Source: Liolophura sinensis | Taxonomy: Eukaryota; Mollusca; Polyplacophora; Chitonida; Chitonidae | Direction: 5' to 3' | DNA length: 64,000 nt | Assembly: GCF_032854445.1 (NCBI RefSeq) | Contig: NC_088295.1 | Coordinates: 50,889,385-50,953,384, forward strand | Shown here: one piece after another, positions 1 to 60,204 of the stretch | Position numbering within the stretch: position 1 is the first letter of the stretch | How the letters are laid out: every line of letters starts with the position of its first letter | Notes under the pieces: generated by a model | What the model saw: only the letters and a program-made list of their open reading frames with translations | Database searches by the model: none | What the model was told of the DNA's origin: nothing | Translations under genes and position numbers: made by a program

Positions 1-804
1 AACCTTTGAAAGTTCTGATGACCTACATAGGGTTTTGCCAAAACCATAATTGGCAATGTCCAAGCACAGTCATCTGTAATCTTCATCTTTTTTGACGGAT
101 ATGATATAATCAAGCCTTGAGCTCTATTATTCGCACTATTTTCATATCGTTCCAACTTGTAAATGACAAAGCTCTTGCAAAGTATCTAGACCTAATCGAT
201 AAATATCACAGGAGAAGTTGGATTGTCTGGAGAATGGTTGTGAGTTGGTTAATGGAGTGGACTGATCGAGCTAATTGAACAATGCATGATTTGGCGTGTT
301 TAGCACATTTAGTGATTATGGTTTATATAGATTTGTTCATGTGCGCACGATGCTCCAAAGCTGTAACATCAATGACAGTTTAAAATAGAATCACAAGTTT
401 TGCTTCCACATCTCGCCAAGTTCACCATTCACTTGGCAATGCATCTTACGGCGCTTTCTCACTAAAGCCCAAATAGGTTTTATAAATTGCAATTAACACC
501 GTTGTGAGTTTTTTTTTACCTAATTTCACTTAAGCTCTGGCTCTAGGGGTGTTACTCTATGGGCGTCGAGATTACTCTGACGATAGGTGTGGCAAAGATT
601 TTGTTTGGCCAATAATGGCTCTCCAAATCAACGTTAATGCCTGATGCAGTTACCTGCCCATGTGAAATATATCTGGCAATCCTTGGCCGAACAAAATTTT
701 GCCAAACCTAACGTCAGAGCAAAATCGTCGAAGCTAAAGATCCCATAAACGTTGTACAGTATCTTCTTCTATTGTCTTCACTAATATTTAGTATTAAATT
801 GCAG
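1..804 (+). other. Intron of the CUB-domain gene, no exon recognised
   Basis: No convincing open frame is seen. The stretch ends in an acceptor (AAATTGCAG, AG at 803-804) that opens the CUB-like exon, so at least its right part is intron. It contains the imperfect inverted repeat listed separately. Any earlier exons, including the signal peptide, must lie further left. Confidence 0.5.
556..747. repeat. Imperfect inverted repeat, foldback/MITE-like
   Basis: The left arm (about 563-612) and right arm (about 681-734) are reverse complements at most positions. Both arms carry CTCTGACG, a TTGGCAAA-like stretch, ATTTTGTT and GGCCAA, in mirrored order. They are separated by about 68 nt. The outer bases TATGGG (559-563 region) and CCCATA (741-746) extend the pairing. 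This is seen directly in the sequence. Calling it a MITE is inference, because no target-site duplication was identified. Confidence 0.5.
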
Positions 805-3800
805 AAAAAATTGTGAGCGAATTCTGTGTGGATAGTACCTACACTGACAGTCAGCTATACATCAGTAGCGCCGCCTATCCATCCTCCATGTCGGGAGATA
901 ACTCTTCATGCAATTGCCTGGTTACGGCTGGAAGGGATACCAGAGTTAACATCAGCATACAAGCAATAGACGTCTTATTCACAGGGGTCGGATACCGGCC
1001 TCGGAAATGTGAACAGAAATTGATGATTAAATCGGATGAAGAACCAGATGAGAACTTTTCTCTGGACTGCAACGACCAGAAAATGTATGGTTACCGAGAA
1101 GTATTCAGTGGAAGAGGGAACAAATGGCTTCTCACTTTGTACAGTCATCCCGTCTCGGACCGGGGAAGAGTGTGGCTGGCGGTCAAAGGTCAGTGTCGAA
1201 GCCCATATGTATATAACCAGTTACCGCTGTGACAATGTTCGTTGATTTAGGTACATTTTTATTGTTAACAATTGATAAATATATAGCGAGTCAGAATAAG
1301 TAATGCATATAAGCGTGTATTACTGTTTTGGGGCGAATAGTTTCATATAAATTCTTGGCTAATATTGTATTGGGCATTGGTCAAAGAGGGCTGATTGACT
1401 TGCTCAAAAACAGCAGATATTTAAGTCAACTGATTTTCGTTACAGACTGGGACTAATTACTCAGTAACGTTGTCATCATCCCCACCTTAGTTTGACGCAA
1501 GACAGCCACTGACCTACTTTAGACGACAGCGAATGATCTACCTCAAGGGTTCGAAAACTAGCCCAAGAAAATGTTCCACTCCGAATATTGTATCAAATAC
1601 ATTTTTTTTTTTTTGGATAATTTAAACAATGACATATTAAACTTGGCTATGGAGCACAGTAATTTGTTAAGTTTCTTTCTACTTACTGGGGTTTTTTTCG
1701 CAAAGGTTTTACAACTTTATGGTGGGTTAATACACTACCAGCAGTTATTAAGACATTACTAGTTCTGCACTGGTGTTCACATGTGCTCCGGTGAAAGTCA
1801 AGGCCATAAGGAACTGTTTGCCAAGATTAGCCGGTTCGTTCATGTCGAAGCCAAAGATCGACCGTCCAGCTGAATTCCCACCCATGGTTCCTCCATTTGA
1901 GAATTCCGCAGGTGTCGCGGCCGTCTTAACCTAGGCCTTACCATGTTTCCTCAGACAGCGCCGCCAGACATGTCCCCGTGCAGCTAAGGGCTGTATCGTA
2001 TTCAATCAATCATTTATGAGTTCACGGCCTTGATCCGTCTGTCCCTTCAGCCACAGACAATAAGCACAGACTGACGGTACGCTGTGGGCCATCCGTGCAG
2101 TGGAACGAATACCAGCCGGCCAAAATACCGGGAATAGACGAAAGCACGAGGAGATACATTGGCATAGGTAAATATTTAGCAGACGTGGAATTGTAAAGTG
2201 ATCAGGGATTTCACCTGACTTAAAGGCAGACGTTTGATTTTAAAGTATGCCGTAATGCTTCTTTCATTACAACGCTTATTTTATTAGAACGCTTCAATCT
2301 GTTTCTCTGTGTCAATCATATACTTAGATCGTTCTGCTTCCAATTACAAAATCAATATGGTACTTCGATATACGATGTTCCTTTGCCTATATAAGTGGAG
2401 AGGTAAAGTACTTGTCGACAGTGGCCTCCGTGGCCGAGGGGTGTTAGCACGTCAGCGCGCGCAATGATTCGGGAGAACACCTACATCCCCCACCCCCACC
2501 CACCCCGGGTCTCCCAGTCCAGCTCATGCTTTCTTCCTGTCTGGGAAGGTCCGCCAGCAACCTGCGGATGGTCGTGGGTTGTACCCCGCTCTCGCCATAA
2601 TTTTGGCCGTAGGACTATAAGTGAAATATTCTTGAGGACGGTGTAAAACACCGCTCAAATAAATAAATAAATAAATAAATACATACTAGTCGGCACAGTG
2701 TCAGTACACACTGTCTCTGTAGTCGACAAAATCTTGTTTTTTTTTTTAATCGCGATCGAGTGAGATAACCTTGTAAATATTTCAGCAATGCCACCGGTAT
2801 GCTTCTAGGATACCCGTCATAAATAAAATAATGCTGAAATTGACTGTTTGTTTGAAATCGTGTTGTTTTCACGAAGATCGTGCTCACCATGCTCACATAG
2901 TAAACATGTTAAGCCAACAACCCAATGAATGAATAAATGAATGAGGCCATGCAGTTCGTATGTAAAAATCATATCATTTTGTCTTATGGACCAAAGAATG
3001 CGTCACGTAAAAAATATGTAGAAAGCTTATGATGCTATTTTAGCTATACCTTTTCGCATTTTACCACTTTTTCTAGCGCCAGTAAGTCATTCAAAACCAT
3101 TACAGCAGGCAGCTTCAGTGTCTTGGCCACTGTTTTCTTTCAGGAATCTTGGCGGGATGTGCCTTAGCCGTGTGCGTGTTTGTTGTCCTGATTGTCATGG
3201 CCATTAGCTGGCAGTGTCGCATTATCAGGTATGTATTGATGTATAGCCTAAAGTAGGTCTTTTCTTTAAATATTTATACAACACTTACCAACGGACACTG
3301 GAGACAAAATTGCTACAAATAGTATGTGGCCCTGGAATATGTATTCTGCAGGTATATAAGAGTTGAAGCTGCGGTATTTTTAACAAAGTGGACCCCACTA
3401 ATAGTGGTCGCAGTGAGACTATCATAGAATCTGAAACCGTGCTCCGCCTTATAGGCCTACGTTAATCAGGTGCAAAACGTCAGTGTATGGTCTGTATGCA
3501 GACAAGTACAGCGACGTCATTGCGTTACTATGTTGTACGGTATTAAGGGTAGTTTATAACATGGGGGAGCTTCGTACAGAGAGACCAAGAATTATCGGAC
3601 GCAAAAACAATGGCCATTTCGGAAAAACACACGAGAACGATACATTCACCATCTTATAGACGTGATCTTGAATCTCAGGGGGTCCTGGTATGATGGGTGG
3701 CTGACGTCTTCTAACCTCTACATGGTACATGTTTTAACGTGGACAATGCCGTTCCGTCCCTGTGTGTTCAAGTCCTGCTCATGCTGGCTTTCCGTCTGGC

Positions 3801-4744
3801 CGTACTATCAGCAACCTGTGGATGGTTGTGGGTTTCTCTCGGGCACTGCCAATCAAATTACACAACTGGCTATGTAGTTAACTGCACATGAGGCCTAAGT
3901 TTTGTGACGACGTTTCCTAAATTCAACTAAATGAAGCCGGGTTCTCCGAGGAAGTGCTCTGGTGGTATTTCTGACAGCTGTGGCATGGATTCCGTGCTGA
4001 TATGTCCAAAATAATGTCTAAAGCTCAGCTAAAATTTCAGGAAAGACAGGCCGGATCTCACAGGTGATGATTTTTTTTTATTTTGGTTAAAACGGCGTTA
4101 CCTTTGTAAGTTTGTTTGGTATCACTATGCATGAATATTTCTGTTACAGCCGCAAATCGCAGAAGGAGGACAAAATGAAGACAGGAAGCTCGAATGACAC
4201 GAGCCCAATGTCACCGGAAAAACAACCGCCAGAAGGAGATCCCAGCAGCTATCACTCCAACACACTGCCTCAGCATAAACCTCCCAACAATAAAAGGGGC
4301 AGGAAGTCTTCCAAAGCCTCCTACAACACTGTTCCTAGGAACATGGAAAGTCGCAAAAATGAAGATATGGGTCCAATGAAATCGTTCCGAAGTACGGACA
4401 GCTTCTCACAAGCAATGGCTGCGTCTTCGCAGCAGGAGTTTCTTCCGGACTACAGTGTTCCGCCGCCGCCGCCGCCTAGCGGTCTGTACGAGAACATCTG
4501 CATGAGCTCGGCCACGTTTCCTCGCGGACGTCCACTGGTGCACGATCCATACGCTCAGTACTATGCATCAATACAACCGCGTGCTCAAGGCTCACACGAA
4601 GCCAGGAACCAGGCCACGAGCACGCCCTGGGAACCGTACGGGGACAACGCTGCGGACGACGAAGAGTGGCCTCCCCCTTACGTTCCCGAGGAGAACCCTG
4701 CAGCAGAAAATACAACGCACGAGTCAGTACATTACCACCACTAA
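805..4744 (+). CDS. CUB-domain single-pass membrane protein with PPxY tail (3' part)
   Basis: Three exons join in frame: 805-1188, 3144-3228 and 4150-4744 (stop TAA). They give 353 residues; the protein start is outside the window. Exon 805-1188 looks like a CUB domain. It has FC, then 28 residues on SCNC, with an intervening I-S-S-A-A-Y-P like the family's I-x-SP-x-YP. A second Cys pair follows (RKC and LDC, about 20 apart), and it ends GRVWLAVKG. Exon 3144-3228 encodes one hydrophobic helix (ILAGCALAVCVFVVLIVMAI) followed by basic residues, so the topology is probably type I. The last exon is a hydrophilic Ser/Pro-rich cytoplasmic tail with a PPPPPP run, LYENI, and PPPY near the C-terminus. 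PPPY fits the PPxY motif bound by WW domains. Donors are GTCAGT and GTATGT; acceptors are TTTCAG and TTACAG. I do not recognise an ortholog, so the function (surface receptor or adaptor) is inference. Confidence 0.72.
2421..2683 (+). mobile_element. tRNA-derived SINE, family A, near full length
   Basis: The element starts with a tRNA-like head (GGCCTCCGTGGC, diverged A box). It continues with the family body (CCAGTCCAGCTCATGC, CAACCTGCGGATGGTCGTGG) and the conserved end AAGTGAAATATTCTTGAG...GGTGTAAAACACC, and closes with an (AAAT)n tail. It lies in the intron between the CUB and transmembrane exons. No clear target-site duplication was found, so it is probably an older copy. Confidence 0.8.
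3745..3860 (+). mobile_element. SINE family A, truncated fragment
   Basis: It shares the family A middle section (GTTCAAGTCCTGCTCATGC, GCAACCTGTGGATGGTTGTG) but lacks the head and the 3' tail. It sits in the intron just before the cytoplasmic-tail exon of the CUB gene. Confidence 0.7.
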
Positions 4745-14572: not shown

Positions 14573-15739
14573 TCACATCTGTCTCATTTGGTTGTGTACA
14601 GTGGTGTAGCCCTGGCTTTGAGGAATCAATGCCAGTGTAACTGGCTTACCCATGCAACGCTTCCATGTTTCACGTAACAGGATACGATTGTAGTACATTG
14701 CCACGATAAACATGACGATTATAACAGCAAATAACAAACCCACAACAACTCCTGTTGCATTGTAGTAGTCCCGTTTACACACCAAATCATCTAGTGACAG
14801 CTCCAGAATGGGTCGACCTTCATTCACAGTGTCAAATGCCGTAGTGCACTTTAAACTTCGCTTGTTTTGTACAGCACGACTTGCGCTATCATTCTTAAGC
14901 CAGTTGTAGAAGGGAATCATGCCACAATCACACTGGAACAGATTGTTGTCCAGGTTAAGCGTTTCCAGTTTTGACAGCTTGGTGATGTTTTGTGCCAGCT
15001 CCTCACTCAGCCACCGCAATCGATTGGATGAAAGATTGAGAATTTTCAGGGTGCTGACATGAGAGCATATGGATACATCTGTTAGCAGGTTGTTCGACAT
15101 GTCCAAGCTAACGATTTTCTCCAAGGCACAAAATGCATTGTGAGTTTCATTTGGCAGGAACCAGAATTCATTTCCTGACAGGTCTAGCTCTTCTAAGGAC
15201 TTCATCTTCTTCACTCCCAAATACCAAGCCAGCTTGACCAGGTGCAAAGTTCCATTCAACTTTTCATGAAAGGCATTTTTCAGAATCAGTTTTTTTAGCG
15301 AAGGAAGGTTTAAAAACACATGAGTATGGTTGTTAATGTGCCACTCATTATGGCTTAGTATCAGCGTTTCCAGGCCAGGCACACAATGAAATGTCTTACC
15401 ATGTATCTCGGTAATGTTGTTGCGCGACAAATCCAAGGAAACTAGCTTATTCATGCTATATGATACATCCTTACTGCAATTGCCAAATATATTTCTTGGT
15501 ATCTTATTAGTGAAGTTGTTGCCAGTGACATTTATGAACGTTAGTTCCCTGGGAAATTTCTGAAACACAGTAGTATCCTGATTAAATACCTTATCACACT
15601 GGAGTGTTGTTTTGTTGCACTCACACTTTGGGTAGTCCGTGCACGTACTGAACCCGTCCCCATTACATTTGCAAGGGCTTGGTGTCAAAATCAACACGAG
15701 CGTAACGCTAAGCACAAAACACCAACTCATACCCATCAC
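14573..15739 (-). CDS. Leucine-rich-repeat type I membrane protein, trophoblast-glycoprotein-like
   Basis: A complete 388-residue frame sits in one exon. Residues 1-25 look like a signal peptide (hydrophobic SVTLVLILTP). A Cys-rich N-terminal LRR cap follows (CKC, TC, CEC, QC; residues 23-48). About seven leucine-rich repeats cover 95-268 (LVSLDLSRNNIT, LETLILSHNEWH, LEELDLSGNEF, IVSLDMSNNLL, LKILNLSSNRL, LETLNLDNNLF). The C-terminal cap has C270, C272, C298 and C321 with the typical NLFQCDCGMIPFYNWL. A transmembrane helix lies near 329-349, followed by a short basic tail of about 39 residues ending SQGYTTVHNQMRQM. Many N-x-S/T sites suggest heavy N-glycosylation. The architecture and intronless frame fit the TPBG/5T4 group, whose vertebrate member modulates Wnt signalling. 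The assignment to that group is moderate; another small LRR adhesion protein is possible. The ATG at 15739 is chosen because the signal peptide follows at once. Confidence 0.85.
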   Translation of the reverse strand: MMGMSWCFVLSVTLVLILTPSPCKCNGDGFSTCTDYPKCECNKTTLQCDKVFNQDTTVFQKFPRELTFINVTGNNFTNKIPRNIFGNCSKDVSYSMNKLVSLDLSRNNITEIHGKTFHCVPGLETLILSHNEWHINNHTHVFLNLPSLKKLILKNAFHEKLNGTLHLVKLAWYLGVKKMKSLEELDLSGNEFWFLPNETHNAFCALEKIVSLDMSNNLLTDVSICSHVSTLKILNLSSNRLRWLSEELAQNITKLSKLETLNLDNNLFQCDCGMIPFYNWLKNDSASRAVQNKRSLKCTTAFDTVNEGRPILELSLDDLVCKRDYYNATGVVVGLLFAVIIVMFIVAMYYNRILLRETWKRCMGKPVTLALIPQSQGYTTVHNQMRQM

Positions 15740-17346
15740 TGCCGTATTTTCAGAGTGTATCTAAACGTTGACAACAGTACGCAGTTTTTGTTCTTTATGT
15801 CCTGCTCACTTCACCAACTAAGGCACGATTAACATTTGGAAAAGTTTGCACAACTCACAAATCGTTCTGTTTCTCGCAATGCAGAAACAAGTACCCTTAC
15901 ATGTACCAAACAAGTCCGTCCTTGTTCCTTCTCCTCGAAATAAAGGAGCCTTCACTTGGTCAGTTAAAATAGAAAAGTGGAACTTTGGAAGCGAGTGTCA
16001 CCTACTTAATTAGTCGTGAAACAAAACAAAGTCTATGCTGCGATCAAATTAGAACGTTAAACATAAAAGGTAAACAATTCACATTCCGGATGTCCTTACC
16101 AATCTCCAAACAGCGCGCGTGGGGGTGGGGCAAATGTATAACCAAAACAAGAGTCCATTCATATAATGAAAAACTGCGAACGAGGACTATGCCACAGTAG
16201 ATATCCTAATATCGTACAGTGCATATTACAGAAAGAAAATATTATGCGAGATTCTGAATGTGTTATGCATTCCGAAACCATTACATGACTGGGTTGGAAT
16301 CGTTGTTTGTCATACCTTTCGGCGTTAAAATGAATCTTTCAACAGCAAAAAAGTTTGCATCTGCAAGCCAGTTAACAGGTGGACATCAAAGTTACCTCCC
16401 CTTGTCCTGGATTTAAGTGGAGGTTAGCTGTGTAGTGACCACTTTCCTGAATGTGTACACTCCCCACATATCTTCATCTAAACACTTTTCTGCCAGCAGA
16501 AGCACAGACGTGTCAAACTTAAACTTGGTTAGGTATCTAGATGGATATCGATCATTTTCATGTGCAACTCTATTTTAGAATTCTAGGTCTTATTTGTTTT
16601 ATGGTTATTCTCTGGGTTCTATTTTTTTATTCACTTGATGGCAATGATTCTCAGTGTGAGGTACAGTAGAGTTAATATTTTACTAAACCTAACACAAAAA
16701 TAGTCCTAATTAGACACAATGCAACATTAATTTATAATTATTTGTGTTTCTCACTGAATTACATCTAACATGTATTTCATCTCGGGTAGCCTAAGGGTAA
16801 CAGTTAGCTAGTGTTGCTTAAATGCTATGTATAGTTGCCTGTGTAATATGACCACACTGCAAACATTATTCATGGACTATATTTTGCAGGATACAATTTA
16901 GGAAGGTTTATTATATTTGACCACTGTTTCGTATATTACTCAGTCCAGATAATTTCAAATTAGATGACAAACAGCTCAGGGTTGAAATAAATTATGGAGT
17001 GAGTGAGTGCTAGGGGTTTAACGTCATATTTAACCATTTTTCAGTCATATGTCGATGAAATAAATTACAGAGCCATATCCCCTGGAGAAACCAGATCCAG
17101 CATAGTACATGTACCCAACAAGTAATGTTTTGATTTGCAAAGCTGCCTGTCACCATTTGTATATATGCAATTAGTGCAAAAGTGTGAAAATTTGATCATT
17201 TGGGATCCCAAAACCTCTGAACCCAAAGCCTTTTTGATACCGGTAAGGTAAGAAATGACTTGCTGGCCTTGGAAGTATCAACATCAACATAACTTTTTTT
17301 CATAGGCAGTGTAGAGGAACCAGTTAAGACAGATTTTGTGAGCCTG
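15740..17346. other. Upstream region of the LRR gene; nothing else recognised
   Basis: The sequence just right of 15739 would hold the - strand promoter and 5'UTR of the LRR gene; no clear TATA box was found. The open frame at 15985-16200 has no domain features. A family B SINE tail fragment lies at 16998-17050. Confidence 0.4.
16998..17050 (-). mobile_element. SINE family B tail fragment
   Basis: It reads GAGTGAGTGAGTGC, GGGGTTTAACGTCA and then CATTTTTCAGTCATATG. This is the reverse complement of the family B 3' end. Nothing further upstream in the element is retained. Confidence 0.7.
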
Positions 17347-19803: not shown

Positions 19804-19819
19804 GGCCCTGAGAAGGGCC
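19804..19819 (-). terminator. Histone mRNA 3' stem-loop
   Basis: The - strand reads GGCCCTTCTCAGGGCC, an exact match to the metazoan consensus GGYYYTTYTNARRRCC: a 6-bp stem with a 4-nt loop, 35 nt past the H2A.X stop. A purine-rich stretch (GGAAGGAAAC) follows about 15 nt downstream and could be the U7-binding downstream element. This predicts SLBP-dependent, replication-type 3' end processing. Confidence 0.93.
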
Positions 19820-19829
19820 TTTGGAATGG

Positions 19830-19847
19830 CAGTGCCGGCCGGCACTG
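19830..19847. repeat. 18-bp perfect palindrome in the H2A.X 3'UTR
   Basis: CAGTGCCGGCCGGCACTG lies between the H2A.X stop codon and the histone stem-loop. In RNA it could form a GC-rich hairpin, or a duplex between two molecules. No family role is known to me. Confidence 0.9.
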
Positions 19848-19854
19848 TGGTGGA

Positions 19855-20265
19855 TTAATACTCTTGTGACTGGGAGCTCTTCTTTCCTTTGCCGCCTGCA
19901 GCAGTGGTCTTCTTGGGCAGAAGGACAGTCTGGATGTTTGGCAACACACCTCCCTGGGCTATGGTTACTCCGCTTAGCAATCGGTTCAACTCCTCGTCAT
20001 TTCGTACGGCAAGCTGGAGATGGCGGGGAATGATTCTGGATTTTTTGTTGTCTCGTGCAGCATTTCCCGCCAGCTCGAGAACTTCGGCAGCCAGGTATTC
20101 CAGCACTGCAGCCAGGTAAACTGGTGCACCAGCCCCAACTCTCTCTGCGTAGTTTCCCTTTCTTAATAGACGGTGGATTCTTCCCACTGGAAACTGGAGT
20201 CCGGCCCGGGACGATCTTGTCTTAGCCTTAGCTTTGGCTTTTCCTCCTTTGCCACGTCCAGACAT
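19855..20265 (-). CDS. H2AX: Histone H2A.X
   Basis: An intronless 136-residue frame; the ATG at 20265 gives the canonical [20 protein letters not shown] start. The in-frame codons further upstream encode no H2A sequence, so the longer frame is rejected. The histone fold is typical: [60 protein letters not shown], and [13 protein letters not shown], including the acidic-patch Glu residues of EELNRLL. The C-terminus ends SSQSQEY. The SQEY tail is the hallmark of H2A.X, with Ser133 the predicted damage-kinase (ATM/ATR/DNA-PK) site that makes gamma-H2A.X; Tyr136 matches the vertebrate phosphotyrosine. The protein packages DNA in nucleosomes and marks double-strand breaks. A consensus histone stem-loop follows the stop. 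The gene is divergent from DPAGT1. Confidence 0.97.
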
Positions 20266-20591
20266 CTTGTGCTTCTCGTGCGTACCTCTGTAGGAAACAG
20301 GAAAGTCAATGCAGAATGAATCTGAAGAGGCCAGCACCGAAATTTATCTTGCCGCCAATGCTTTGTGTAATCTTCAACCAATCACAAAATTGCGCCTTTT
20401 TTCTTAGCCAATGAAATGTTAACCCTCTTGTCATATGATCAGAGCAGGTCTCGTGACTCACCGGAAATACCTCTCGGATCTTTCCGAACATTGCCGGATT
20501 TTCCCGGTAATTGTCGAACACGTTTTTCAATCGCCCACACTGTTACAACAACAACATAGGCTAATTGTGTGCAAAGCACAGACCATTAGCC
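20266..20591. promoter_or_regulatory. Divergent promoter region between H2A.X and DPAGT1
   Basis: The two start codons are 326 bp apart on opposite strands. Three CCAAT boxes (20355-20359, 20378-20382, 20408-20412) lie in the H2A.X-proximal half; CCAAT pairs are usual in histone promoters. On the - strand a TATA-like GATAAATTT sits near 20340-20348. Nearer DPAGT1 are TGACTCA (20454-20460, AP-1-like) and CCGGAAAT (20461-20468, ETS-like). ETS sites are common in bidirectional housekeeping promoters. The motifs are seen; that they drive both genes is inference. Confidence 0.7.
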
Positions 20592-23500
20592 ATGACCCTG
20601 GAAATTATGTCGGTTCCGTTCATTGCCAATGGAGCGATGGCATTTATTGGCTTCGTCTTGACTGTCACAATTATTCCAAAACTAGGAGATATGTTTATTC
20701 GTGGAAATCTGTTCGGGATTGATCAGAGCAAAGCCACGCGTACAAAAATGTAAATACACGTGTGGCAGTAACTGTGTGTATGTAGACTTGAATGTGTCTG
20801 CTCTTTCCGTTCAATCTGACGCAATCGTTCAGTATATATTCTACTTTATATCAGTGTTTAAATGCGCAAAATTTGTGGCTCTGAGTTCAGTGTTGTCATT
20901 AAAATGTCTTACCTTTAATGGAAATAAATTTTTAAGTGCGTTAGCAACTTTGATTGCTCTTCTGTCCCAAGAAATGATGCATGTAGGCCATTTTATCTTC
21001 TGAGGGAAAGCCATGTTAAAAAGTTGTGTTAAAAACGGGCCAAATAAAAATTAAAAGACGTTTCTGTGTTAAAGAAAGGAATGTTATGCAACGAAATGTT
21101 CTTAGGTCATGTAGTAGGTTGATATACCGTATCTACCATAATTTTTGTCATTATCACACTAAACATAGTAATTGAGAAAGAGAGCTACCAAAACTCTTTA
21201 CACCAAACAAACATAAATGGTTACATCATAACCCAATCTCCAATATCAGCTGTTTTATTTTTACCAAATATTGAAACTTAAGTACTTTTTCAAAATATTA
21301 AACTTTTTGACTAAACGTAGTGGCCTGTTGTTCAAATTTCAGATAGCATATAAAACAACTAATGATTTACATTTGTACAAATGCAAGAAGTTTGTAGGTA
21401 AGCCTCCACATGGTACTATTTTTCCAGTTTTGGTGAACAGTGTAGAAACTTGCCTGTTTTATTTATATAATTCATTAGCTGTAATTAAGTGTGTACCAGT
21501 ATCCAAAATGGTGGTAAATATGGGCAGAGGCATTTTTATTGTTGTTGTACCGATGCCTACATTTTTGCATTAGGCTGATAATTGAAAGTGCAGTAATGAA
21601 ACTTTGTTAAGTGCATTCTATAGACTTAAAGTTTGTTGCTTAAGATGTCTATATATATATATAACTAGGAAAAACAGAAAATATTGCGTCATTTTTACAC
21701 ATCTGGTATGTATGCACGTAATTGCATGCAATGCCAGCCATTGGTCGTAGTGTTTTTATTTGGCCAATGAAATCGATTAAGAAATTCTTGAAAAGTTGAA
21801 AATCTTGAAAGGTAAGATTATCTTTATATTGATATGTGTTGTTTTTGGGTGTTTTTTTTTAGCCTGTGTGTATTGTAACATTTTTGAAACAAATTGACTA
21901 CAAGCTAAGCGCTTCCATGTTTCAGACCAGAATCTATGGGAGTGGTTTGTGGGACAGTTTTCCTCATTGTTATGTTTCTATTCATACCTGTGCCGTTTTA
22001 CCAAGCCTTGTCTGACAAAGATGGTCAATTTCCCCACCATGAGGTAAGTGCACCTGGACAAACCAGCCCAGTAGGGCACATGTGGAGTTGGAGAAAGGGT
22101 GTCACTGGCCAGGCTATCCTCACCCTTCACTGCATCCATGGCAGCATTCTTTATGTCTTTTCCTTAGGTGCCTCCCCCCACCATCCCCTTAACACTTTTA
22201 CCATGTCCCCCACCATTTTGCTAAATGTGTGTCATAAGAGTATACCTGCACCCTTCAATACCCACCCCTTCCCACCCTTACCCTGCACACTTGCCTGAAG
22301 CAGCTGATTGTCCTCTTATTATCTTTTTACTTCAGTGTTCTACTTAAACATTGCCAAACTCTCCCCACTTCCCACTTTCCTATCCTTACCCTCCCCTCTC
22401 CTCTTTCCTTCTGTTCTGACAAAGACTGTGCCCAAGGAATAATTTAGATTCCCAGCTGTGTACACTTCCTGTTTAAGGTTCACTAATGGCCTGGATATCA
22501 TTAGCAGCAGCAAGTAACACTTTTTCCAAGATCTCAAAACCTATTTGACTTTCATAGTTATAATGTTAGATTTCAGACTAGAATACACTGACATGGAATG
22601 TTTATGCAATGACTTGTTTGTATACAATGTCTAATCCATGAGGTTAGTCCTGTATCTGCATTAAGATGTGATATCTACATATAGATAAAGGCATTTACTA
22701 TCAAATTTTACGACTGTAGATGAAATGGTTAAATATCACTGGTATAGTGCAAAAAACCATGTTCTCATTGTTTAAAGGGCCGAGTCGGCATTTCAGGAGT
22801 CCCGCAAGGTCAAGCTGATATTGAGGAGACAGGGTGAGGGCTCTGGCAAGGTTCCTGAAATGTCTTCTTGGCTTATTGTCTGTATAGAGTTGTTACTTGG
22901 GTATATTATTACAAAGAATTGCATCCGGTTATAGAAGTTTTAGGACACACAAGGCGCATGTTCAACACTAGGGCCTAGGTATATTTAGATTCTCTCAATC
23001 TCACAGCTTGTGGGACTGTGATGACAAGCACTTGATGCTGCTGGTGGGTCCATTTGCACAACTTAATGTACGCTGAAGACCACATTTGTTACCATCCGTA
23101 TAGTGTACATGGTGGCAAATTACGCCTGGTCAGTAATGTATCAGATGTTGGTGGTTTACCCCAGGTACTCGGGTTTCCCCCACCCATGAAACTGACAGCC
23201 ATCACATGAGTGAAAAAGCCTTGAGTATGTTTTTTTTAACAATGGTCAAGTTTTGATGATGAATTTTGTGTGACTGTTTGTTTTCAGTATGTGGAATACA
23301 TCACGGCCTTGCTGTCTATCTGCTGTATGATATTGCTTGGGTTTGCTGATGATGTCCTGGATCTTAAGTGGAGACACAAACTGCTCTTACCAACAGTGGC
23401 CTCCCTCCCTCTCCTCATGGTCTACTTTGTCAACTTCAATTCCACAATCATTATTATTCCCAAGCCGTTTAGGCTTCTGTTGGGCTTCGATCTAGATTTG

Positions 23501-26500
23501 GGTAAGATTATGCACACAGTTATCACAGCTTTTAATTAATAAGGCTGAAGATTTGTGTAATTCAGTTATGGACAAATTCAATATTCCAAGCTGAAGATCC
23601 AATCTGACCTCCATCATGTGAGCATTATGGTTTAAGTCAAAAATTCTTGAGTATGTACAGCATTAAATACCAAAGAATAAAATAAATAAATCGACATGAA
23701 AAGTATCTTTTAGTCCATTAACTTCTAAGCTCTAGTATTTCATGTTTTCAGGTCCATGTAGTTTATGACCATAGGAATTTAATACATCTCCACGACAACA
23801 GTGGAGCAAACCAGACACCCTGGTCCATATCTAACAGAGTGGGTTAAGTTTCAGAGTTATGCCCCTTGAATTCCGGATCTGTCTCGCATAATCTCGGTTT
23901 ACCAAACGTTGATAAATGAGACTTGATATCACTTCATATTCATACACATCACTTCTTTTCCCAGTAAACATTGAAATGAAAAAAAAAATGTCGAACATAT
24001 GTAGTTATTGTACAATTTCTATTAAAATTTGATGATTGCCTGTCATGTTATTATTGTTATGTTGTAGGACTTTTGTATTATGTGTATATGGGAATGCTGG
24101 CAGTTTTCTGTACAAATGCTATCAACATTTACTCTGGTATTAATGGCCTGGAGAGTGGCCAGTCTTTTGTGATTGCTGTCTCTGTTCTCATCTTTAATAT
24201 CATTGAGCTATCAGGTAAGGATCGCATGAAACTAAAACTTTAGAGAAAAGAAAGCTCTGAGATCAGTTATACCGGAAATGCGTGTTTTCTCCATAGCAAC
24301 ATGTTTTAAGTTTTTCGTATTCTTGTTAAGCAACTCTAAGGCTCCAAAAGCAGAATGACAAACAAAGACTTTGCCCCCTTGCAGAGCTGCCATGTATGGC
24401 TCAAAGCCTAATGGCTGTAATAAGAAATGTTTTCCTTTGGGCAATGAGAAGGCAGTTCTGGCAACCTTTTATGTTACTGGTTCAGTTATTTGCACATAAG
24501 TCTTAGCCAGTCTGAAACCAGTCTTAGCGGACATGCTCCAGTAAACACAGTAAGTTTTAGTGAACTCTTTGTTCCGTTGAAGGTTGTAACAATATTACCT
24601 CCATGCACTGAAGAGCTAATAATTAGACATAATTGCTTTTTTTGAGTTTTGGCTGAAAACAGCTGCTCTCATTAGTCACTTAAAATAAATCATCAAAATA
24701 TCACAAATATGATTGTTAGAGCCCTTAGACATTCTGATTTGTTCCTTTTTTTTATAAGAATTGTGTCTTGCAATGTTAAGATCAGGAAAAAATGTTGAAA
24801 TAAAAGTTGCCCACACCTCTCCACACCCTTGAAATTTACCTGAAATAGATAAATATTTCACTGTCATGGATTTGAATGTACAACACTGCCATTATTGCAC
24901 TTCCATTAAAATCTGTTACCTTGTGATTTTGTTCATGCAGGATATTCAAAATATGCAAGGAGAAGGTTGTGAAATTATGTGTTAATTAAACAAATGGACA
25001 TTTTTCCTGTGGCCAATACCCCCGAGTAGTAATCAGTGGTTTAGACTGGTCTCACCAGCTTCCTCCACCCTGTAAAATTGGCCGACATCATACAGTGAAA
25101 AATTTTTGAGTATGGTGATAAACAAGGAAACAAATAGATAAATGATTCAAATTGCGGTCATTGATTTCTCTGAATCTGTGTTTTATATCCAATTTTAGGG
25201 GACCATAAACAGGCTCATCAGTTTTCCATTTTTTTCATGATGCCATTTCTAGCAGTGAACAGTGCATTGCTGTACCACAACTGGTAAGTACAACTCCGAT
25301 TATAGGCTAGATGTTTGTCACCATGGGATTCCATGAATTCCACGATTGACGAGTGCTCAAAGACTGTCTTATGTTCAAATGCAACTCCCACTGCCTGGAC
25401 CACAGCTTTACATCAGAGATATGCTGTATGGAATATTTTTAAGTATGGCTTCTAGACAGATGTAAATTCTGTACAAAAATAATTTTCCCTGTGGTCTGAA
25501 GCACAGTACTGAAGGTATATACAGCCCTTGTCCACTGATTTGGGGTTGGCAAATCCAGCTGCCTGAGAAAAGACAGTAGCTTAAGGGTTACCTCAGGTGT
25601 GAAGATTGCTGGCAGGAAATAACATTTAAACCTGACCAGTTACACAACAGAAACACCAGACAAGTGTACCGATCTGAGAAGTGTGATTTGAATATGTTCC
25701 TGACACAAATGTAACATTTCTTATATTTAACAGTTTTATTGATTTAACATTTTGAAATCTATTTACAGTTGTCAACCAGTTGTGTTGATATAATTCCCAA
25801 TGATCTATCAGGGCACAAATCATTGCACTACCTATGTTTTCATCTGTGAAATCGTGTGGTCATCATGAAGTGCAGTAATCTGACATTGAACCAGTGTGTT
25901 TATGGTACACTTACAGTTTTAGTAATCAGTTATCAGTTATTATTGTTGTTAACTCTGTGAATTATTTCTGTATATTTGTAGCTTCCATTTCATTTCCATG
26001 AAATCATTTTCCTCTGTCTTTTATGTTGTTTTTCCTCTCATACAGGTACCCATCAAAAGTTTTTGTTGGCGACACATTTTGTTATTTTTCTGGGATGACC
26101 TTTGCAGTTGTTGCCATATTGGGGCATTTTAGCAAGACGATGTTGCTGTTTTTTATACCCCAGGTGTTGAATTTCATCTACTCTGTACCTCAACTGTTTA
26201 AATTTGTGCCCTGTCCAAGACATCGTTTACCGAGGTGAGCATAAGCATATCGATTAAAAATTTCATAACATACAAAAAGGGAACAGAACTGTCCAGAGAC
26301 TGGATGGAAGAAAGTTGTGGTTTGGTTCCTACCTCATTTTGTGATGGTGTCACACATGTCAGAGTGACTTGATGGGGTGTCATGTTTGGTGTCACACACA
26401 ATGCCATTGTGAATAGGTGAGATGTCTTGTGTGGTGTCATTGTTACTGGGTAGGGTGATGTCATTGTCACTGGGTAGGGTGTCCTATGTGATGTCACACA

Positions 26501-28516
26501 TGATGTCAATTGTCAGTTAACAATTACATGTTGATGATGTGCTAGATGAAGTGATTAAGGTAGTAGTGAGATGTATATACAGTAGCTCTGTGAAGTTTCT
26601 GTGGCCCAGGGGCTTAGCATGCCAGCACGGCGCAGTGACCCAGGAGCCTCTCACCAATGCAGTCTATGTGAGTTCAAGTCCAGCTCATGCCAACTTCTTC
26701 TCCGGCCGTTTGTGGGAAGGTCTGCCATCAAGGTTCCTCCCACCATAATGCTAGCCAGTGTCATAAGTGAAATATTTGTGAGTATGGCGTAAGACACAAA
26801 TCAAATAAATAAGTTCTATTAATTAAATCCAAAAGTCCTTTAATGCATGAACTTTTGGAAACCTGAGCAGTAGTTGAAATTTGCGCTGTGAAAAGTACGA
26901 AAGTGTAGCTTTGTGGTAATTCCTTGTCAGAAAAAGGAAAAAAAAGGAAGAAAAAAAGAGCAAAAATATTGATACAAAATGGACAGCTTTTCAGTTTCTC
27001 TTACTAGGTGACAACTGTTAATTTTGATTACCACTACAAGAAATGTAACAATGGTTGTACTTTTTCTAATGCCAGTGTGCTGTGTGTGTATTTATGTGTG
27101 CCTTCATTGTTGTTGTTCACTCTTACCCTTAGTGGTACTGCATTATGTCTTGTGTGTACTGTGTGTGTATTTAAGTGTGCCTTCATTGTTGTTGTTCACT
27201 CTTACCCTTAGCGGTACTACATTATCTCTTGTGTGTACTGTGTGTGTATTTATGTGTGCCTTCGTTGTTGTTCACTCTTATCAGTAGCAGTACTGCATTA
27301 TCTCTTGTGTGTACTGTGTGTGTATTTATGTGTGCCTTCGTTGTTCTCTCTTATCAGTACTGGTACTGCATTATCTCTTGTGTGTACTGTGTGTGTATTT
27401 ATGTGTGCCTTCGTTGTTGTTCACTCGTATCAGTAGCAGTACTGCATTATCTCTTGTGTGTACTGTGTGTGTATTTATGTGTGCCTTCGTTGTTGTTCAC
27501 TCTTATCAGTAGCGGTACTGCATTATCTCTTGTGTATTGTTATTTTCCAGATATAATGCAAAGACAGACCAAGTTGGAATTAGTACCACAAGATTCAGAT
27601 TAAAAGATGTTTCGTTACTTGGCCGGCTGTTTGTCTGGTTGTACAGCACCCTCAGACTTATCCATATCAAACACGATGTGGGAGAAAATCAGGAGTATGT
27701 CGAGTGCAGCAATTTTACAGTCATCAATCTGCTTTTAATATTCACCGGCCCAAAACATGAACGTTCTGTGGTATTAATTCTTTTAGGATTTCAGGTTTGT
27801 ATTTTATGGACTGTTTTGTCAAATAGTAAGTGACATTTGCAAAATTCAATTATAAGACCTGTCCAAGAGTCACTTACAAAATTCAATTATAAGACAATTA
27901 TAAGGCCTGTCCAAGACATTCATGAGGTGAAGGCTCACACTCAGCCCTGGACAGGCCTCTTTTTAGATTTTCCCCTTTTACTGCTTGTGGGGCCTTTGGT
28001 GACAAAAAGTGGCCGATGTTTATTTGGCCATTTGCCCAGTCTTTGTACCTGTCTTTCATTTTTACATTGAGCATATCTATATATATATATATATATATAT
28101 ATCCTATACGTCTTATTTGGTAAAGTTGGTTAGTAACTTGTCACAGGCCAGAGGTTTATGTTTGGCACCTGGGTTTCCTCCACTTATGGAACTGACAACC
28201 GTAATAGAGGTAAACAATTCTCTAGTATGGAGTTTTACAACAGTAAAGTAAAGAAATCAATACAGGGTGAAGAATTCGCATAGTCAAATGACGTATGTAC
28301 ATGCGTTAAAAATCGCGAGCCATTGACTGTTGGTGTTTTACCATGGTATTAATGATGACACTTTACATGGACATCATTTGTACGTATTTGTATTGACCAT
28401 AAGTAAAATGGTTTATGGTAACATCTTCTTTTGGCTTTTTTTTTTTTCAGGTTTTTTGCAGTGTTCTGGCATTCTTGATACGCTACCAGTTAGCAAGGCT
28501 TTTCTATGACGTATAA
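20592..28516 (+). CDS. DPAGT1: UDP-GlcNAc:dolichyl-phosphate GlcNAc-1-phosphotransferase
   Basis: Eight exons: 20592-20749, 21926-22043, 23288-23501, 24068-24214, 25199-25283, 26046-26234, 27551-27794 and 28451-28516. All introns are GT-AG and the frame is kept throughout, giving 406 residues (human about 408). The enzyme transfers GlcNAc-1-phosphate from UDP-GlcNAc to dolichyl phosphate in the ER membrane, the first and tunicamycin-sensitive step of N-glycan precursor synthesis. It is a polytopic protein of the MraY/WecA superfamily. Visible signatures are FPHHE (88-92), [19 protein letters not shown] with the Asp pair at 113-114, [18 protein letters not shown] (178-195), [20 protein letters not shown] with Asp250 matching the family's catalytic-site Asp, [11 protein letters not shown], and the CPRHRLPR loop (297-304) expected to bind the UDP-sugar. 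The C-terminus ends RLFYDV as in vertebrates. The ATG at 20592 is chosen; another in-frame ATG at 20607 is possible. Introns carry SINE fragments and a 76-bp minisatellite, but the coding frame is intact. Confidence 0.97.
23110..23232 (+). mobile_element. SINE family C fragment in DPAGT1 intron 2
   Basis: GGTGGTTTACCCCAGGTACT, CGGGTTTCCCCCACCCATGA, AACTGACAGCCATCAC and GTGAAAAAGCCTTGAGTATG match other copies at 25.0, 28.1, 31.6 and 60.1 kb. The shared end resembles family A, with GTGAAAAATTCTTGAGTATGGCG in place of GTGAAATATTCTTGAG. Confidence 0.6.
25038..25144 (+). mobile_element. SINE family C fragment in DPAGT1 intron 4
   Basis: TTCCTCCACCCTGTAAAATT, GCCGACATCATACAGTGAAA and TTTTTGAGTATGGTG are followed by an AAACAAATAGATAAATG tail. 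This is a diverged copy. Confidence 0.6.
26600..26813 (+). mobile_element. SINE family A in DPAGT1 intron 6
   Basis: The head (GTGGCCCAGGGGCTTAGCAT, CAGTGACCCAGGAGCCTCTC), B-box-like GAGTTCAAGTCCAGCTC, and tail (AAGTGAAATATTTGTGAGTA, CAAATCAAATAAATAAG) are present. A central segment is deleted after GTCTGCCATCAAGG. Confidence 0.85.
27070..27535. repeat. ~76-bp minisatellite, six copies, in DPAGT1 intron 6
   Basis: The unit contains GTACTGCATTATCTCTTGTG, TGTACTGTGTGTGTATTTAT, and GTGTGCCTTCGTTGTTGTTC. The copies differ by short indels (72-79 bp), which shift the reading frame. The array ends 15 bp before the acceptor of exon 7, so it abuts the polypyrimidine tract. Open frames across it are repeat artefacts. 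Confidence 0.9.
28077..28102. repeat. (TA)n microsatellite in DPAGT1 intron 7
   Basis: About 13 TA repeats lie just before a family C SINE fragment. Confidence 0.95.
28139..28260 (+). mobile_element. SINE family C fragment in DPAGT1 intron 7
   Basis: CACCTGGGTTTCCTCCACTT, ATGGAACTGACAACCGTAAT and CTCTAGTATGGAGTTTTACA correspond to the family C end. The tail has decayed. Confidence 0.55.
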
Positions 28517-46545: not shown

Positions 46546-46795
46546 TACGTCATATAATTGCGAAGCTCTACCTTAGGCAGTGGTCTCAATTGGACTGGAC
46601 ATGTATTTATAATAACGTTGTCTTTGGGATGGCATCTTGTTAAAGCTGGATTCTGTCACACACAGAAACAACCGAAACAACCCTTGTGAGACCGGTAAAG
46701 CCACTGGCTCATGTGAGACCTAACTCTCGTCTTCTAACTGAACAAGAGAGCCCTTTCCATTAACTCATGGCAGAGCAGTGGACCTGTGTGTGTCG

Positions 46796-47970
46796 AAGCA
46801 TCATGTTCGGTTGATTCCCCGCCATCATGTTCGGGGGAGGTCACAGCATCATGTTCCGTGGCTATCGCGCCATCATGTTCGGTGGCGCTCACAACATCAT
46901 GTTCGGTGGCGCTCACAACATCATGTTCGGTGGAGCTCACAGCATCATGTTCCGTGACTGTCGCGCCATCATGTTCGGTGGCGCTCACAACATCATGTTC
47001 GGTGGCGCTCACAACTTCATGTTCGGTGGCGCTCACAACATCATGTTCCGTCGCTGTCGCGCCATCATGTTCAGTGGTGCTCACGGCATCATGCTCAGTG
47101 GCTGTCGCGCCATCATGTTCGGTGGCGCTCACAACATCATGTTCGGTCGTTGTCGCGCCATCATGTTCGGTGGCGCTCACAACATCATGTTGCGTGGCTG
47201 TCACGACATCATGTTCGGTGGCGCTCACAACATCACGTTGTGTGGCTGTCGCGCCATTATGTTCGGTGGCGCTCACATCACGTTGTGTGCCTGTCGCGCC
47301 AACATGTTCGGTGGCGCTCACAGCATCATGTTCCGTGGCTGTCGCGCCATCATGTCCGGTGACGCTCACAACATCATGTTCCGTGGCTGTCGCGCCATCA
47401 TGTTCGGTGGCGCTCACAGCATTACATTTGGTGGCTGTCGCGCCATCATGTTCGGTGGCGCTCACAACATCATGTTCGGTGGCGCTCACAACATCATGTT
47501 GCGTGGCTGTCACGCCATCATGTTCGGTGGCGCTCACAACATCACGTTGTGTGGCTGTCGCGCCATCATGTTCGGTGGCGCTCACAACATCATGTTCGGT
47601 GGCGCTCACAACATCATGTTCGGTGGCGCTCACAACATCATGTTGCGGGGCTGTCACGCCATCATGTTCGGTGGCGCTTACAACATGTTCGGTGGCGCTC
47701 ACAACATCACGTTGTGTGGCTGTCGCGCCATCATGTTCAGTGGCGCTCACAGCATTACGTTCGGTGGCTGTCGCGCCATCATGTTCGGTGGCGCTCACAA
47801 CATCATGTTCGGTGACGCTAACAACATCATGTTCGGTGGCGCTCACAACATCATGTTCGGTGGCGCTCACAACATCACGTTGTATGGCTGTCGCGCCATC
47901 ATGTTCGGTGGCTGTCGCGCCATCATGCTCGGTAGCTCTCACAGCATCATGCTTGGTGGCCGTCGCATCA
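46796..47970. repeat. 24-bp minisatellite, about 49 copies, open in three frames
   Basis: Two main unit types alternate irregularly. One would encode MFGGAHNI and the other MFGGCRAI on the + strand; the - strand reads ATEHDVVS and ATEHDGAT. Because 24 is a multiple of 3 and no unit frame contains a stop, about 400 codons stay open in two + frames and one - frame. The - frame has no ATG before the repeats end. The + ATG frame ends in a degenerate SINE tail (48000-48055), so I judge it non-coding. Confidence 0.93.
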
Positions 47971-47989
47971 TGCTAACTTCGTGGTTTTT

Positions 47990-58150: not shown

Positions 58151-59925
58151 TACCTATACATGACGATGGTTGACGATACTGTTCCCTTGTTTGATATATG
58201 ACAATTGGTGACGATACTATTTCCTTGTCAGATACATGACGATGGTTGACGATACTGTTTCCTTTTCAGATATATACCGATGGTTAACGATAATGATCCC
58301 TTGGCATATATATAACAATGGTTGAAGATACTGTTTACTTGTGTGATATATGACGATGGATGACGATACTGTTCCTTTGACGGATATATGACGATGGTTG
58401 ACGACACTGTTTCCTTGTTTGACATATGACGATGATTGACGATACTGTGTCATTATCAGATTTATAAGGATGGTTGACGATACTATTCCTGTGTTTGATA
58501 TATGACGATTGTTGACGATACTGTTCCCTTCACAGATATGTGACGATTGTTGGCGATACTATTTCCTTGTTTGATATATAACGATGGTTGACGATACTGT
58601 TCCCTTGTCTCATATATGACGATGGTTGACGATACTGTTGCCTTGACAGATATATGACAATGTTTGGCGATACAGTTTCCTTGCCTGGTACATGACGATG
58701 GTTGACGATACTGTTGCCTTGTCTGATATATGGCTTTGGTTGACGATACTGTTTCCGTGTCAGATATATGACGATGGTTGACGATGTTGTTTCCTTGTCT
58801 GACATATGACGATGGATGACGATACTGTTTCCTTGCCAGATATATAACGATCGTTTACGATACTGTTCCCTTGACAGATATATGATGATGTTTGGCAATA
58901 CAGTTTCCTTGTTTGATATGTGACGATGGTTGACGATACTGTTTCCTTGACAGATATATGACGATGGTTGACGATACTGTTCCTTTGTCTAACATATGAT
59001 GATGATTGACGATGCTGTTTCATTATCAGATATATAACGATGGTTGACGATACTGTTTCCTTATCAGATATATGACCATAGTTGACAATACTGTTCCCTT
59101 CACAGATATATAACGATAGTTGACGATACTGTTCCCCTGTCATATATATGACGATCGTTGACGATACTGTTCCCTTCACAGATATATGTCGATGGTTGAC
59201 GATACTGTTTTCTTGTCAGATATATAACGATAGTTGACGATACTGTTCCCTTGTCATATATATGACGATTGTTGACGATACTGTTCCCTTCACAGATATA
59301 TGTCGATGGTTGACGATACTGTTCAATTGTCAGATATATAACGATAGATGACAATGATGTTCCCTTGTCATATATATGACGATGGTTGAAGATACTGTTT
59401 CCTTGCCTGATATATGACGATGGTTGACGATACTGTTCACTTGACAGATATATAACGATGGTTGACGATACTGTTTCCTTGTCAGATACATGACGATGGT
59501 TGATGATACTGTTCCTATGTTTGATATATGACCATTGTTGACGATACTGTTCCTTTCACAGATATATGACGATTGTTGGCGATACTGTTTCTTTGTTTGA
59601 TATATAACGATGTTTGACGATACTGTTTCCTTATCAGATACATGACGATGGTTGACGATACTGTTCCTGTGTTTCATATATGACGATGGTTGACGATACT
59701 GTTTCCTTGTCAAATATATGACGATGTTTGGCGATACAGTTTCCTTGCCTGATATAGGGCGATTGTTGACGATACTGTTCCTTGTCAGATATATGACGAT
59801 GGTTGGTGATACTGTCTCCTTGACAGATACATGACGATGTTTGGCGATACTGTTTCCTTGACAAATATATGACGATGATTATCGATACTGTTCCCTTGTA
59901 TGATATTTAACGATCTTGTCATGTT
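58150..59925. repeat. 38-bp minisatellite, about 46 copies
   Basis: The unit is GACGATGGTTGACGATACTG, TTCCCTTGTCAGATATAT with frequent single-base variants. On the - strand three units (114 bp) give a 38-residue periodic reading with motifs such as KQYRQPSSY and NSIVNHRHIS. These open frames follow from the repeat and not from a gene. Confidence 0.95.
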
Positions 59926-60039
59926 ACAAGCAGATCACTATTTGTGAGGGCTTTGTTGTGGCTGTTTGTGTTTGTTTAAACATTGTCTTTAACGTTATCA
60001 TTCAACTGTATCGTGTATATATGTTTACGTCACGTGTGT

Positions 60040-60204
60040 GAAAACTTGACAAAGATCGGTGGTTTATCGCGAGCATATTTTCTCCATCCATAAAGCAGAC
60101 CGCCACCGTGTGATCAAAAAATATTTTCGAGTATGGCGTTAAGCAACAATCAAATAAATAAGTATATAAATAAATAAACAAATAATGAATAAATAAAAGC
60201 GTCT
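60040..60204 (+). mobile_element. SINE family C end between two arrays
   Basis: GGTGGTTTATCGCGAGCATA, TTTTCTCCATCCATAAAGCA, ACCGCCACCGTGTGATCAAA, ATTTTCGAGTATGGCGTTAA and an AAATAAAT tail are present. Confidence 0.7.

Follow-up and report, generated by a model that had tools for sequence, protein, structure and literature searches.

An H2A.X-DPAGT1 gene pair common to Liolophura sinensis and human suggests a linkage from early animal evolution

In Liolophura sinensis, a gene for H2A.X, the histone variant of the DNA-damage response, and the gene for the sugar-transfer enzyme DPAGT1 are divergently oriented neighbours whose first ATGs are 326 bp apart. The adjacency of the two genes is common to human while the head-to-head layout is not, and we suggest that H2A.X and DPAGT1 have been neighbours since early animal evolution. 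The best reading, to which we assign a probability of roughly 75%, is an ancestral linkage followed by one inversion, with coincidence as the main rival. The window, i.e. the whole stretch of 64,000 nucleotides that was analysed, holds the following features of the pair:

20265-19855, minus strand: H2A.X coding sequence, intronless, 136 aa plus stop, C-terminus SSQSQEY
20266-20591, unstranded: inter-ATG region of 326 bp, presumed divergent promoter
20355, 20378 and 20408, DPAGT1 sense: three CCAAT motifs, from a motif scan
from 20348, H2A.X sense: TATA-like GATAAAT, from a motif scan
20592-28516, plus strand: DPAGT1, 8 coding exons, 406 aa
20592-20749, 21926-22043, 23288-23501 and 24068-24214, plus strand: DPAGT1 exons 1-4
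25199-25283, 26046-26234, 27551-27794 and 28451-28516, plus strand: DPAGT1 exons 5-8

The H2A.X reading frame is intact from the ATG at 20265 to the stop codon at 19857-19855 on the minus strand. The encoded protein has an H2A core: it matches the Pfam families Histone_H2A_C (69.6 bits) and Histone (55 bits), PDB chains named Histone H2AX align to residues 1-135 (E about 3.5e-68), and 118 of the 125 residues aligned with a canonical H2A of the same genome are identical. Its tail, SQEY, is a C-terminal SQ(E/D)-hydrophobic motif, the feature by which the nomenclature paper defines the H2A.X variant (PMC3380720). Thus, the H2A.X gene with a SQEY tail that the initial annotation had recognised is supported by an intact 136-aa frame and by both the Pfam and the PDB matches. 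Moreover, it gave the sole match to PF00125 in the 64-kb window, in agreement with the earlier description of a single histone gene outside clusters. Over 121 codons, H2A.X and canonical H2A have 54 synonymous and 5 amino-acid differences, with third positions alike in 67 of 121. This balance indicates that H2A.X is no recent duplicate of canonical H2A from the histone arrays.

The exon boundaries of DPAGT1 were chosen by eye from splice motifs and the exons then joined by script. The joined exons encode an uninterrupted protein of 406 aa, 7/7 introns are GT-AG, and solved DPAGT1 chains (UDP-GlcNAc--dolichyl-phosphate GlcNAc-phosphotransferase) align to residues 6-406 (E=3.6e-159), i.e. the match to a GlcNAc-1-phosphotransferase is full-length; the gene with its 8 exons is complete, as had been proposed. 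Because the alignment starts at residue 6, which is a Met, the true start may lie 15 bp downstream. PF00953, searched against the genome, returned two matches, both within exons of the DPAGT1 in the window, and no second DPAGT1, a missing match in such a search being no proof of absence. By eye, intron 6 contains tandemly repeated units of roughly 75-80 bp (with TGTGTGTATTTATGTGTGCCTTC) at 27080-27540, just upstream of exon 7.

The two start codons, at 20265 on the minus strand for H2A.X and at 20592 on the plus strand for DPAGT1, face away from each other, and the coordinates, strands and 326-bp distance first reported for the pair are all correct. At least three CCAAT motifs pointing the same way were present in 2.55% of 2000 dinucleotide shuffles, or in 6.65% if either direction is allowed, both values being uncorrected for the choice of motif. 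The most likely role of the gap, as far as can be told from the DNA, is that of a divergent promoter. Bidirectional pairs have been described as divergent genes whose start sites are less than 1 kb apart (PMC7817982). The pair in L. sinensis resembles them in its divergent start codons, which are 326 bp apart, and differs from them in that the head-to-head layout is not common to human.

In human, HMBS, H2AFX and DPAGT1 are covered together by FISH probe sets that span about 21 kb and are 5.2-5.3 kb apart (PMC8943813). The distal promoter of human H2AFX overlaps the DPAGT1 3'UTR, within which the SNPs at -1187 and -1420 fall, and the promoter SNP at -1654 alters DPAGT1 residue 393 (PMC5910560); because the promoter overlaps both the 3'UTR and a coding position of DPAGT1, the two human genes are on the same strand, in tandem. 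These two papers bear out what the initial annotation had stated, namely that the human genes are neighbours on the same strand. By contrast, the idea of a conserved head-to-head pair held only in part: its adjacency extends to human, as taken for this distant lineage from the papers and not from a genome search, while its layout does not, the genes being head-to-head here and in tandem in human. The published lists for chicken chr24:0-1 Mb (PMC6678660) and pig chr9 (PMC11464582) also include both genes. A cattle paper names both genes in gene sets but gives no positions for them, while a cattle chr15 list and an eccDNA list include DPAGT1 and not H2AX; these sources were set aside as evidence of adjacency. 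Among open-access papers naming both genes, there was no report of linkage outside vertebrates. In total, the human locus at 11q23.3 is similar to that of L. sinensis in that the genes are neighbours and in that H2AFX, too, is located away from histone clusters and carries a 3' stem-loop (PMC8943813, PMC5910560, PMC7807067); it differs in that the 3' end of DPAGT1 is at the H2AFX promoter, whereas in L. sinensis the 5' ends face each other.

We propose that H2A.X and DPAGT1 adjoined each other on an ancestral animal chromosome, parts of which would now be human 11q23 and C1, the contig that carries the pair; that local gene order was later scrambled while the pair was kept together; and that one gene was flipped in one of the two lineages. 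Such a single-gene inversion would result in the tandem order in human and the head-to-head order in L. sinensis, in which the 326-bp gap would serve as divergent promoter. A refinement that does not exclude this reading, namely that head-to-head is the ancestral layout, held by a shared divergent promoter coupling both genes and broken in vertebrates, seems rather doubtful to us. Divergent histone pairs are common, and the gap of 326 bp with its three CCAAT motifs in one direction would fit such a layout; however, the excess of CCAAT is weak. Moreover, it is the 3'UTR of human DPAGT1, and not its promoter, that overlaps the distal promoter of H2AFX (PMC5910560) and, therefore, a shared promoter is not needed for the linkage to persist. 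Because human keeps the pair without facing promoters, promoter sharing is not a general reason for the linkage; the genes may instead have stayed together by chance or because one of them contains regulatory DNA.

An ancestral linkage with local scrambling predicts that vertebrate neighbours of the pair lie on the same chromosome at a distance. Nine genes listed together with the pair for chicken or pig were sought in the L. sinensis genome, and eight were placed. HMBS, SRPRA, CENATAC, CBL and RPS25 are on C1, about 19-43 Mb from the window; VPS11 and STT3A are on C3, a contig of 27.5 Mb, and BCL9 is on C6, i.e. three of the eight placed neighbours are off C1. VPS11 and BCL9 were placed by one match each, and vertebrate BCL9 and BCL9L may share a single invertebrate counterpart. 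STT3 copies are present on both C1 and C3; the exon on C3 is clearly closer to STT3A (119 vs 97 bits) and, therefore, STT3A was counted against C1, while the exon on C1 is slightly closer to STT3B (56 vs 53 bits). C2CD2L, which in human adjoins DPAGT1 on the side away from H2AFX, had no match in the family search of the genome, in which the controls were silent too, making this result uninformative; the controls were prokaryotes, and silence was expected for VPS11, SRPRA, CENATAC, CBL and BCL9.

C1 accounts for 96.4 of 609.5 Mb, i.e. 15.8% of the genome, and the presence on it of five of eight placed neighbours has P=0.0036 against this expectation from size only, a value that is indicative, the genes having been picked with results in view. 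Thus, the pair probably belongs to the linkage group that corresponds to human 11q23, with the other local order scrambled: HMBS, which is in the same region as the pair in human, is 30 Mb distant in L. sinensis. The two neighbours on C3 suggest that parts of two ancestral chromosomes are combined in the vertebrate region. This pattern is the predicted one, and a single pair still touching stands out in it.

None of the other human 11q23 neighbours was recognised in the window among 16 ORFs searched with Pfam, or by eye among the long ORFs in 10 kb on each flank, which counts against ancestry, as do the neighbours placed off C1; the 10 kb on the right flank contain no ORF of 85 codons or more. 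The Pfam set consisted of 16 of the many ORFs listed for the window plus four ORFs beside a second H2A.X gene described below. Sensible matches in the window were those of H2A.X, a leucine-rich-repeat gene and a CUB match below threshold. Sub-threshold Avr2 and fibrinogen-binding matches were on repeat-encoded ORFs and were discounted, and NCBIfam, applied to three window ORFs, added nothing useful.

A search of the genome with the H2A.X protein gave 38 matches, of which only the gene in the window and one on contig C9 reach past query residue 127. The gene on C9 (C9:19304317-19304712) encodes a protein of 133 aa with the terminus SSQSQEL, and no histone stem-loop was found by pattern in the 2.3 kb read. 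It is flanked by an EF-hand exon on one side and by sub-threshold TPR-like exons on the other. This gene, rather than the one adjacent to DPAGT1, could be the true orthologue of vertebrate H2AX. Two H2A.X genes in one invertebrate, H2A.X.1 and H2A.X.2, are also known in Hydractinia, where one ends in SQEY and the other, with SQAY, is restricted to female germ cells; the Hydractinia genes differ in having introns and, according to the text, in being without a stem-loop, although one figure legend shows one (PMC5011920). The mussel MgH2A.X is likewise of the SQEY type and described as a functional H2A.X, and differs in that its cDNA came from polyadenylated mRNA (PMC3256202). The available sections of PMC3256202 and PMC5011920 do not name DPAGT1 as a neighbour of the mussel or Hydractinia H2A.X. 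Among the other histone genes, an array of histone-fold matches, mostly 5-10 kb apart, is located at C1:57.94-58.03 Mb, about 7 Mb from the window; most of these matches are full length and, from profile coverage, probably H3. H2A and H2B are side by side at one C7 and one C4 locus that were read.

These results bear on the rival explanation, in which H2A.X was inserted or moved beside DPAGT1 independently in this and the vertebrate lineage, like other dispersed histone genes. The opposite orientation in human (PMC5910560) is in line with this explanation, as are the two H2A.X loci in the genome, which show that H2A.X genes arise or move, and the description of H2A.X in the nomenclature paper as paraphyletic or polyphyletic (PMC3380720). 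Moreover, vertebrates are reported to have lost 84% of the microsyntenic blocks that were new in the bilaterian ancestor (PMC8851819), and retention in human would therefore be an exception, which counts against ancestry. By contrast, the probability of chance adjacency to one named gene is 0.5-2e-4 (0.5-1e-4 genome-wide for one given pair, rising to 1-2e-4 when both H2A.X loci are counted) and 3-6e-4 when a common location on C1 is taken as given, with 20,000-40,000 genes assumed; five of the eight placed neighbours are on the pair's own chromosome; and the synonymous divergence from canonical H2A argues against a recent origin. On balance, we regard independent arrival as unlikely.

A linkage younger than the protostome-deuterostome split, due either to a deuterostome source or to an origin within one branch that includes vertebrates, appears highly improbable. 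The canonical H2A and the interspersed repeats have what we take to be a lophotrochozoan appearance, which counts against it. The scores of H2A.X against PDB H2A of different animals range from 233 to 222 bits after the first match and, being nearly alike, do not decide on age. Ancestral linkage followed by one inversion therefore remains the reading that we prefer.

The 3' end of H2A.X is similar to that of canonical histone genes and contains the following features:

19819-19804, minus strand: histone mRNA 3' stem-loop, 6-bp stem and 4-nt loop UCUC, from pattern, fold and RF00032
19803-19756, minus strand: purine-rich histone downstream element and following stretch, from by-eye likeness to canonical H2A and H2B genes
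19394-19389, minus strand: AATAAA, possible poly(A) signal, about 410 bp past the stem-loop

The stem-loop consists of the 16 bases GGCCCTTCTCAGGGCC past the stop codon, and its far end is position 19804, at which the initial annotation had placed the start of the locus. In base-shuffled sequence, 0.005 occurrences of the pattern are expected per 64 kb, counting both strands. The predicted fold has -11.4 kcal/mol (z -2.5), and 5/200 shuffles fold as well. RF00032, the Rfam histone 3' UTR model, scores 32.0 bits (E=6.1e-7), which is below the gathering score of 34 and, therefore, the stem-loop is not listed at the gathering threshold. The identical 16 bases are among the human histone stem-loops listed in PMC7807067. 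For comparison, four canonical genes on C7 and C4 were read, two each of H2A and H2B. All of them carry GGCCCTTTTCAGGGCC, and their corresponding stretch is similar, by eye, to the sequence that follows the stem-loop of H2A.X.

Human H2AFX, which lies outside histone clusters, makes both stem-loop and poly(A) mRNA (PMC7807067). H2A.X in L. sinensis has the stem-loop and downstream element of such a gene with dual 3' ends, at an Rfam score below gathering; from these motifs, it would have the first 3' signal of human H2AFX and possibly the second. The AATAAA is not above chance, such motifs occurring about 0.9 times per kb on the minus strand, and a single AATAAA is thus no evidence of a poly(A) site. 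We suggest that the H2A.X mRNA would be processed in the S-phase way at the stem-loop and downstream element, and perhaps also polyadenylated. By analogy with human H2AFX, a housekeeping neighbour away from histone arrays would allow H2A.X to be expressed outside S phase. Between the H2A.X stop codon and the stem-loop, at 19830-19847, there is also an 18-base perfect palindrome, CAGTGCCGGCCGGCACTG, which folds as an RNA hairpin (11/200 shuffles fold as well). A mir-237 match was at chance level and was discounted.

Ancient gene pairs of this kind have been described. For the bilaterian ancestor, 256 new microsyntenic blocks were inferred, compared to 45-56 in shuffled genomes, with collinearity not required (PMC8851819). 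These blocks are similar to the pair in that unrelated neighbours were kept together amid scrambled order; they differ in that the study counts at least three genes, whereas two are together here (PMC8851819). H2A.X-DPAGT1 is thus plausibly a new example of such pairs. More tentatively, and as a possibility rather than a probability, the spot beside DPAGT1 may be the founding bilaterian H2A.X locus, where one gene by descent would have stayed, histone-type 3' end included, for more than half a billion years; position, and not sequence, would then show the orthology of animal H2A.X, as opposed to repeated origins. H2A.X proteins are short and very like canonical H2A, and a kept genomic position would be independent evidence on one lineage versus many, testable in any chromosome-level genome. 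If this is the case, a histone gene outside the arrays would have been kept for long at a housekeeping neighbour, with consequences for H2A.X expression outside S phase. The value of the pair would lie in this positional test of H2A.X orthology and not in a new mechanism.

Elsewhere in the window, the nearest clear gene beyond H2A.X is at 14576-15760 on the minus strand and encodes a leucine-rich-repeat protein in a single exon. Its frame spans 395 codons between stops, and a signal peptide and a membrane segment were recognised by eye. Exons of a probable membrane gene are at 798-4741 on the plus strand, including the sub-threshold CUB match, and continue just outside the window with an exon that looks lectin-like by eye. 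A long repeat at 46737-47972, in which several frames are open on both strands over about 410 codons, is probably a minisatellite and not a gene. A second minisatellite-like repeat region, with many overlapping ORFs on the minus strand, is located at 58220-60594.
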